DNA from: Pelecanus crispus
Lineage: Eukaryota; Chordata; Aves; Pelecaniformes; Pelecanidae
Assembly: GCF_030463565.1 (NCBI RefSeq)
Contig: NC_134675.1
Span: forward strand, 16,513,862 to 16,577,861
Length of the DNA stretch: 64,000 nucleotides
Direction of reading: 5' to 3'
Position numbers and translations under genes: made by a program. A model generated the notes under the pieces. The model was not told where the DNA came from. It saw nothing but the letters and a program-made list of their open reading frames with translations, and did no database searches. How positions within the stretch are numbered: the first letter of the stretch is position 1; each line of letters opens with the position of its first letter. Positions 1,921-5,341 of the stretch are shown here, in pieces.

Positions 1921-2007
1921 TGTCCTGGTTTCGGCTGGGATAGAGTTAATTTTCTTCCTAGTAGCAGGCATAGTGCTGTGTTTTGGATTTAGGATGAGAA
2001 GAATGTT

Positions 2008-2411
2008 CCTAGAATCCTAGAATCGTTTAGGTTGGAAAAGACCTTTAAGATCATCCAGTCCAACCATTAACCTAACACTACAAAGTCCACCACTAAACCA
2101 GTTAAGGGGAGAGTAATAATTAATTTCATGTTTCCTGGCTTGGTGGCTGGATTATTTTTTAATGCAAGTAAAAACTAGGAATCATTAAGATTGGAAAGGA
2201 CCGCTAAGATCTTTGGGCGTCAACCCAACCCCACCATGCCCACTAAACCATGTCCCAAAGTGCCACGTCTACCCATTTTTTTGAACACTTCCAGGGATGG
2301 GGACTCCACCACCTCTCTGGGCAGCCTGTTCCAATGCTTGACTACCCTTTCCATGAAGAAATTTTTCCTAATATCCAATCTAAACCTCCCCTGGTGCAGC
2401 TTGAGGCCATA
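2008..2411 (-). mobile_element. CR1 LINE 3' end (copy 1), part of the REL chimera
   Basis: The reverse complement matches the last part of CR1 ORF2 and its 3' UTR, including the stretch encoding [20 protein letters not shown] residues seen whole at 9.7 kb. The tail is compound: a first CR1-type end near 2180-2215, a spacer of about 80 bp, then a second CR1-type end near 2008-2100. Similarity to CR1 stops near 2411, where presumed REL 3' UTR begins. Confidence 0.88.
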
Positions 2412-3329
2412 GGATCTGAGCCTTCTTTTAAGCAGTCACTTGCATAGCAGGAAACTGCCAGGATACCTGAAGAAAGACTAGGTAGATGCTTCGGTGCAAC
2501 ATATTTCTGCAGTTCAAAATAACATATACATCACAGCTACACGCACCCCCGCACAAAAAAAACTTCCAGAAAAATAACAGCGTGCTCCATTCCTAAAGCA
2601 ACAGGGCTTTGTCGTTTAAAAAAGTGCACTTTGGATGAAGTGCAGCAAAGTCCTTGCTTTCTGTTCATTCTTTTGTGCAGTGATTCATTTAAAACAGAGC
2701 TGGAGTACTTAAAAACTCAAACCTTCCGGTCTTTTAAAATATATCTAACAATGACATAGTCATTAAAAAAATTTTAAGAGTAAATTTGCCTTCAAAGCAA
2801 ATGGAGTGTGGTGAAAGTGTGAAAAGAAATCAATGCATGATCCTGGTTTAGGAGAAGAATATTTTCTATGAAAGAGGGTAAGAAACCTAAATCTTTCACG
2901 TAAGTTAAGCAGAACTTTAACTCTGTTAGGTGAGTCTGAACTAGAGTGCCCATGTGCAGGGTTTTTTCCCTAACTTCTGTCCTATCAAAATTTAAATTTA
3001 ATTTCCATAGCAAAAATGGGGTGGTTTTTAAACAATTTTAACCCTGTGAAGTATGTGAAGTTTTAACCCTTCTGAAGATGCCAGCTTTTACAGTCCCCAA
3101 AGGTAAGGAAGATTTAAGTGTTAACAGTTCCCTTTTCCAACAGCGTGAAAATATGTATACAAGGTACAGAGCCCCAACCCCTACTCCCACCTCTCTTCTT
3201 TACGGGCACCAGTCTTTGGGCTGTAATATTCTGAAAGAGAAAGCAGGGACTCCAGAAGGGTTACTCCTCTTCACACTGCCAGCCATCTGAAAAGCTCTAC
3301 GTACCTGCTTCCAGCCCGCCGCTGCTGGC
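2412..3329 (-). other. Probable REL 3' UTR within the retrocopy
   Basis: This stretch joins the REL stop codon (3330-3332) to the CR1 tail without a break, so it is read as copied 3' UTR. It is AT-rich and has no long frame. I cannot recognise it by sequence. Comparison with the parental REL 3' UTR would settle it. Confidence 0.6.
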
Positions 3330-4868
3330 TCAATGGTTATAGCTTTGTAATATGTTATCTAATTGGAAAGACTGATAGAGCTCCTCAGCGTGGACACTGT
3401 CGGTGTCATAGTACTGGTTATCTGGAATGCTATTCTGATGGTTTGGGAGCGGGTTGGTGGATAGTCTTGATTCGCTTAAAACTTCTTGGTTTAGAAGACC
3501 GTAAACCGGATCACTGAAATTAGCCTGCGGATTAAAAGGTGTGCTGCCCGGGGCTGCTACAGACGGGCAAGCCGGAGGCACCTGTTGGAGCTGCTGCCTG
3601 TGATTGCTTGCATTTAACACTGGATTATACTTTTTGAAGTTTATATTAGTGCAGTTCATGTCATCGGTCTCCATGTTCATGATGCTGGCTGCGGAGGCGC
3701 CGGCGGGATGAGCCTGGTGCGTGATGCTGTTACTCGAAACGCTCTGCATGTCTGCGGTCGACACCGCCGCTGCTCCCATCCCGTTTGTGCTGCCAAAATT
3801 CCCGTAGAAGCCCGAATCCTTCTCATCGGGCCAGTTCAGAGGGTTGTCGTGGAAAGTTGAGGGCGAGCTGCTGCCCTGGGCGGCAGGCTGAGGCACATCT
3901 GCCGCGAAGCTGTTCTGCGGGTGCGCGTTGAGCAGGCTGCCGGCTGAAGAGGGGGTGCTGTATATCTGCTGCCAGCACGAGGAGAGCGCGTCTTGCTTCC
4001 CTGGCCCCACCTGCGCAGGCTGATGGGCAACCTGGTTGCAGACGGGGTAGATCTGACTAGCATTGGCCAGGTTTCCTAGACCCGGCATCATCAGCGCGGG
4101 TGAAAACGCATTTGGTTCTTTCTTAATCAGCTTCCCTTCCGGAGTGATAGCGGGGAACGGAGCTACTTTGGGCCTCTCTGTCGCATTGGATCCGCAGTCC
4201 TGTATGAGCTTTTGCCAAGCCAATGTTGATCTTTGCCTTTTTGCTTTGTTGCCATATGGATCCTTTTCATCTGGGAGGTATCTGAAATCCATAGGTTCGC
4301 TGACTTCCTGGTCTGAAGGTCGTCGCAGCTGCATCTTCACCGTCACGGGCTCGGTGATGTCTTTGAGAAACGGTGGCGTTCTGAACACAATTGCAACTTG
4401 ACGGTGAACGTCAGCTTGTGAGAAGGAACCTTTGGCCTCCCAGTTGTCCAAGACAAATCTGACTTCTATATCATCTTTTTGAACTTTGTCACACAGTAGA
4501 AATATTTCGTCTCCTCCTTTTACACTTCCACAGTTCTTGTTCACGCGACAGATTCGTAATTCTGCTGTGTTGGGAGCTCTGTTGTCATAGATGGGGTTGG
4601 AAATCAAAGGAGGAAGAGCTAACGTGTAGTTGCCGTGTTCGTCGGGGAGGAAGGCTTGGAAGCAGAGGCGGACGACATTGAGATCGTACTCATCGATGTT
4701 GTGCAGCTGTTCTTCAGGCACATTGAAAGGGTTAATCTTCTTCAAGATTCGTGAAGAAATTGATTCCTTCAGGTCTGTCTTTTTCACACACTGAATGCCC
4801 AAATTCTGAAAAGACAGGACTCGCCGTTCTGGCCCAAACTCTGCTTCGTAGCATAACACACTGATGTT
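3330..4868 (-). pseudogene. REL: REL (c-Rel) processed retrocopy, 5'-truncated, frame open
   Basis: A single uninterrupted frame of about 510 codons encodes c-Rel from [15 protein letters not shown], about 90 residues into the usual protein, to the normal C-terminus LQSYNH and stop. It carries the second half of the Rel homology region including the dimerisation part ([20 protein letters not shown]), the nuclear localisation signal KAKRQR (about residues 206-211 of the frame) and the long C-terminal transactivation region. The parental gene has many introns and none remains, so this is an mRNA copy. The recognition loop RFRYxCEG and the normal start are missing. The frame enters the flanking LTR for a few codons, and the first in-frame ATG is at 4334 (MQLRRPSD). 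A translated product would lack the main DNA-contact region. No frame-breaking change is visible, so the copy is young or, less likely, under selection. It is a pseudogene by structure. Confidence 0.92.
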
Positions 4869-5341
4869 TTAATTGTTGCTAAGTACTGCTTGTGCTGGTC
4901 AAGGACTTTTCAGCTTCCCATGCTCTGCCAGGTACACAAGAAACTGGGAGGGGGCACAGCCAGAATAGTTGATCCAAACTGACCAAAGGGCTATTCCATA
5001 CCATATGATGTCATGCTCAGTATATAAACTGGGGGGGGTTGGCTGGGGAGCAGCGATCGCTGCTCGGGAAACTGTCTGGGTATCAGTCGGCGGGTGGTGA
5101 GCAATTGCATTGTGCATCACTTGCTTTGTATATTATTATTGTTATTATCATTATTATATTGTTATTATTATCATTACTATTTTACTTTATTTCAATTATT
5201 AAACTGTTCTTATCTCAACCCAGGAATGTTTTTCACTCTTACTCCTCCAATTCTCTCCCCCCCATCCCATCGGGGTAGGGGGAGTGAGCGAGCGGCTGCG
5301 TGTTTCTTAGGTTCTGGCTGGGGCTAAACCACGACATATCT

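Follow-up and report, generated by a model that had tools for sequence, protein, structure and literature searches.

How a spliced cellular message came to be copied into a bird genome is the question raised by a locus in Pelecanus crispus, where a copy of the REL gene lies in the middle of a solo long terminal repeat (LTR). The scarcity of retrocopies in birds, as Suh reportedly put it in 2015, is usually explained by the need of CR1 enzymes for their own 3′ tail. We analyzed the locus within a window of 64,000 nucleotides (the whole stretch of DNA considered here), compared it with the parental gene in the same genome, and asked which RNA served as the template.

The insertion site

The target is a solo LTR on the forward strand, delimited with the help of nine other copies in the window. 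Its left 87 bp lie at 1921 to 2007 and its right 484 bp at 4853 to 5336, and a 5-bp duplication, tatct, flanks the element at 1916 to 1920 and at 5337 to 5341. All nine other copies continue uninterrupted across the 2007/4853 site, and the joined halves match them except for being one base short, the missing base being G in six of the nine and A in three. The original prediction that the two halves sharing tatct form one element is thus borne out; by this comparison they are a single solo LTR, interrupted at 2007/4853. The tatct duplication belongs to the LTR itself, and the insert at 2008 to 4852 has no target duplication. The insert had been described as a later arrival with clean edges. It does lie within one LTR, but at base 4852 the sequence agrees neither with the parental gene nor with LTR copies elsewhere in the window.

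The position of the copy within an LTR could suggest that an LTR retrotransposon produced it by template switching, the LTR halves being those of the carrier. A retrocopy of that origin would lie between two LTRs or in the internal part of an element; here there is one solo LTR, complete but for a single base, and neither a second LTR nor an internal part adjoins the REL copy. The REL copy moreover runs opposite to the sense of the LTR, and a CR1 octamer stands at the target. We regard an LTR carrier as extremely improbable.

Three other features of the window were recorded. Broken retroviral gag/pol-like open frames (52335 to 57336, the frames from 53906) lie next to an LTR that belongs to the family of the target, a perfect hexamer array of TCCCTC (13.7 copies) lies at 60161 to 60242, and a weak Rfam tRNA match at 60948 to 61004 (31.5 bits against a cut-off of 29; uncalled by ARAGORN) is possibly a tRNA relic or the head of a SINE.

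Content of the insert

The insert reads on the reverse strand, as had been predicted, from REL coding sequence through the REL 3′ untranslated region (UTR) into a CR1 3′ end, whose 3′ terminus abuts the target; it is intronless and 5′ truncated. The coding part (3330 to 4851), recognized by protein match and by comparison with the parental gene, extends from the residues YEAEFGP to the stop codon without the seven introns of REL, and its 507 codons including the stop form a frame that is open throughout. Both Rel homology domains are present, and 194 residues of the predicted protein align with chicken c-Rel (1gji) with zero gaps. In a tree of 46 proteins, the set used from 120 of 2039 related proteins, the copy clusters with REL of Egretta, Anhinga, Sula, and Morus (98% ultrafast bootstrap), which places the source of the window among waterbirds of this kinship. 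At 266 strongly conserved sites it deviates at 2, and the 46 REL proteins deviate at 0 to 9. The REL 3′ UTR follows at 2412 to 3329 on the same strand (918 nt, with seven substitutions relative to the parent).

The remainder, 2008 to 2411, is one continuous 404-nt CR1 3′ end, 5′ truncated and on the reverse strand, which the parental junction and shared private states described below assign to the REL 3′ UTR. Its tail (2008 to 2023, reverse strand), identified by comparison of octamers, consists of two copies of ATTCTAGG; this is the putative priming end and adjoins the target. A CR1 3′ hairpin (GGTTGGA...TCCAACC) lies next to it at 2030 to 2065, also on the reverse strand; the fold of 2008 to 2070 gave −16.2 kcal/mol with a z score of −1.73, which is weakly better than chance, as 12 of 200 shuffles folded as well. 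A reading of 2008 to 2411 as two CR1 ends enclosing REL sequence was rejected because a copy at about 8800 to 10047 of the window shows one CR1, unbroken through the whole stretch; the middle part, at about 2101 to 2180, is subfamily sequence. The subfamily seen in these two copies has a compound 3′ end, consisting of a normal-looking end, some 80 nt, and a second end with hairpin and octamer.

The parental REL gene

A search of the window's own genome (1.31 Gb) placed the parental REL gene on contig C3 at 4492649 to 4516281, in eight exon pieces, and the copy is on contig C45. A search with REL sequence alone returned nine matches, the window copy and the eight exon pieces (all five candidates scored). 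All seven parental introns are GT-AG, and the insert lacks every one of them, its exons being joined exactly; together with its location away from the parent, these are the features of a processed pseudogene or retrocopy. It had been expected that the REL locus would hold a CR1 in the same sense and with the same junction, and this was found: C3:4514174-4516281 aligns with positions 734 to 2843 of the insert in one block at 98% identity, and the parental block runs unbroken from coding sequence through the 918-nt 3′ UTR into a sense CR1 and its octamer, with a junction identical to that of the insert. The junction predicted at 2411 is therefore one that the copy shares with the REL locus, its exact place being 2412/2411 give or take one or two bases.

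The parental CR1 tail carries ATTCTAGG once, followed by ATTCT and then by ATCC. The tetramer ATCC is also found directly before the CR1, and the pair is probably, judging from its position, the duplication left by the old insertion of the CR1 itself. The insert has kept the left ATCC and ends at the octamer; the right ATCC and any parental flank beyond the octamer are absent from it. A separate insertion footprint at the junction, which would have spoken against the original prediction, was not seen; the only footprint is the old one of the CR1 in the parent.

These observations bear on the possibility of two events, in which a CR1 first entered the LTR and a REL copy later landed exactly on its 5′ edge. 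CR1 elements are abundant in this genome (at least 38 other near-full matches to this CR1 3′ end among the 40 scored of 3354 candidates), which speaks in favor of this reading. However, the parental gene has the identical boundary between REL and CR1, and CR1 and REL together replace one target base; two independent events have a vanishingly small probability in our estimation.

Source of the CR1 sequence

The CR1 part of the insert was compared with that of the REL locus and with 27 other copies of the subfamily, a sample from a genome that has more. G at CR1 positions 247 and 395 was present in the insert and the REL locus only (0 of 27 other copies at each position), as was the stretch GCCCAA (0 of 27). 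The change at position 395 creates the octamer ATTCTAGG. The insert carries this octamer two times and the parent a single time, whereas 26 other copies, with 52 octamers between them, do not have it at all. Pairwise identity of the insert is 94.3% to the parent and 91.0 to 92.5% to the 27 others; the margin is small, and the argument therefore rests on the junction and on the states that only this pair has in common. A multiple alignment gave 91.0% identity between insert and parent, no nearer than other copies, but it misplaced a rearranged CR1 stretch, and pairwise maps were used in its place. The shared private states and octamer indicate that the CR1 arrived within the REL transcript and not from another CR1 RNA.

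An alternative would be that the enzyme first copied the RNA of some ordinary CR1 and moved over to REL RNA in mid-copy. A switch of this type has been proposed for PittSINE and for LINE-1 chimeras, which are described in PMC5729268 and PMC13174262, and the surplus of differences in the CR1 part (see below) could be read in the same way. The identical junction at the REL locus of the same genome contradicts it, and the private REL-locus states reach as far as position 395 and the octamer, so that a template switch now appears very improbable. The template was, with high probability, a REL transcript carrying its own CR1, wherever that RNA ended.

Divergence and age of the copy

Substitutions between copy and parent number 2 of 734 in the earlier exons, 13 of 788 in the coding part of the last exon, 7 of 918 in the UTR, and 16 of 402 in the CR1, the last two differing significantly (Fisher's exact test, P = 1.1e-4). 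At 11 of the 16 differing CR1 sites the insert carries the commoner state, so the parent is probably the one that changed. Within C3:4513801-4522000, the CR1 of the REL 3′ UTR lies at about 2075 to 2480 and a sister CR1 at about 6770 to 7190, roughly 4.3 kb downstream. The sister agrees with the parent at 4 of the 11 parent-side changes. Gene conversion of the parental CR1 by its neighbor is a conjecture that could fit these data only in part. The greater divergence of the CR1 parts compared with the UTRs is the main loose end of the explanation preferred here.

When decay was simulated with substitutions taken as neutral and with an indel for every ten of them, an open frame of this length was unlikely (3%) at 2% divergence. 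The copy is thus young. No sign of a function was seen in the copy, and its 5′ exons are missing.

A model for the retroposition of REL

The end structure of the insert suggests that it was made by a CR1 enzyme. The CR1 3′ hairpin and octamer are held to be the recognition site of this enzyme in portions of PMC5729268 and PMC8665684, and both stand at the target here, the hairpin being weakly better than shuffles. CR1 insertions are reported to lack target duplications in an excerpt of PMC2169234, and this insert has none.

In the model that we propose, an older 5′-truncated CR1 sits in sense in the REL 3′ UTR, so that spliced REL RNA carried the hairpin and octamer tail. A CR1 reverse transcriptase acting in trans would have taken the octamer tail of this RNA as its start, nicked the top strand of the resident solo LTR, and primed at the octamer. 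A slip would have copied the octamer twice, which is the simplest source of the last bases of the insert. Synthesis would then have proceeded up through the CR1, the 3′ UTR, and the coding sequence and halted at the codons for YEAEFGP, after which the joining of the 5′ end would have cost one base of the target without duplicating any. The REL RNA itself would have extended past the CR1, with a poly(A) tail that the enzyme bypassed. In this scheme the parental gene with its CR1, the identical junction, the splicing, the end at the octamer, and the site of insertion are observed, and the enzyme, the slip, and the extension of the RNA past the CR1 are deduced.

The parental CR1 ends 1318 nt past the REL stop codon, and no AATAAA follows the stop before 1441, 123 nt beyond the CR1. 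An mRNA ended by this AATAAA would contain the CR1 tail internally, and an internal start is therefore simpler than a transcript ending at the CR1. It is possible, although we consider it doubtful and give it the lesser share within the same explanation, that the REL RNA did end at the CR1 tail, being either terminated there or cut, and that copying began from a true 3′ end instead of an internal position. The insert would then stop at the octamer and contain none of the parental flank beyond it, as is seen; against this, there is no poly(A) hexamer just before the tail, and the two earlier ATTAAA hexamers (one at 328, the other at 1169 within the CR1) would yield ends within the UTR or within the CR1. 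Both of these hexamers precede the CR1 end, and through them the gene may also produce REL RNAs that lack the tail.

A start at the internal octamer thus modifies the original prediction of a read-through or CR1-terminated transcript: the CR1 does lie within the REL transcript, but an end at the CR1 is not required. The missing poly(A) between REL and CR1 had been taken to argue against a jump onto a polyadenylated mRNA. Such a jump is indeed contradicted, but the absence simply reflects the position of the CR1 inside the 3′ UTR. The central proposal, that a REL transcript with a CR1 tail would bypass the limit on bird CR1 enzymes, gains support from the parental CR1, the junction, and the octamer end.

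Comparison with known systems

The closest parallels are the CR1-tailed SINEs of passerines (TguSINE1 and PittSINE), in which, according to an excerpt of PMC5729268, a foreign RNA with a CR1-derived tail is mobilized in trans and the hairpin and octamer stand at the 3′ end. Those elements have a tRNA-type head and many copies; here a spliced protein-coding mRNA forms the head, a CR1 that lay by chance in its 3′ UTR forms the tail, and there is no family, only the gene and a single copy. Mammalian processed pseudogenes made by LINE-1 are likewise 5′-truncated copies of spliced mRNA inserted elsewhere, but they have a 3′ poly(A) tail and a target duplication, whereas the REL copy has no poly(A) tail, starts at the CR1 octamer, and replaced one base without duplication. 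LINE-1/mRNA chimeras also join an mRNA and a LINE 3′ end in sense in one insertion; the explanation given for that fusion in PMC13174262 is trans-splicing, RNA ligation, or template switching, whereas here the fusion exists in the parental gene. Among the literature matches listed, no title or opening of an abstract described a bird mRNA copied via a CR1 in its own 3′ UTR.

Generality and significance

Counts of retrocopies in chicken vary with the criteria used. One survey gives 78 (PMC3136929, in excerpt), and another, by other criteria, gives 321 putative retrogenes and 720 retropseudogenes (PMC2048973, likewise in excerpt). In the pelican genome, 31 matches to the cyclophilin model PF00160 (all 49 candidates scored) included no full-length intronless copy, the longest covering 50 to 158 of 159 positions. 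The actin model PF00022 gave 84 matches (all 95 candidates scored). Three of these span almost the entire model uninterrupted, one with three stops. No CR1 match was seen within roughly 1.5 kb on either side of the three near-full-length actin-like copies, and these count against CR1 tails as a general route. Of 24 cyclophilin and actin loci, 10 were scanned for CR1, and one (a partial cyclophilin match) has a CR1 nearby. Around C7:22833406-22834524 lies an intronless actin of the cytoplasmic type, full length and open over 401 amino acids, with neither CR1 nor a long A run in the locus, a candidate retrogene that may have been made by some other route. The CR1-tail route is established for REL and not as a rule.

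The CR1 in the REL 3′ UTR apparently let the bird's own CR1 machinery copy the REL message, by a route that has been regarded as almost closed in birds. The REL copy amounts to a natural test of the CR1 tail rule: an mRNA bearing the tail was copied, and the copy begins at the tail. We consider it about as likely as not that a CR1 3′ end inside a polyadenylated mRNA can serve the CR1 reverse transcriptase as a starting point, which would make any bird gene with a sense CR1 in its 3′ UTR a substrate for retroposition. The idea can now be tested, as genes with sense CR1s in their 3′ UTRs should be enriched among the parents of bird retrocopies, and the copies should end at the octamer. If it is true, CR1-tailed retrocopies would be a class of their own, and one that supplies retrogenes, in birds and in other CR1-rich genomes.
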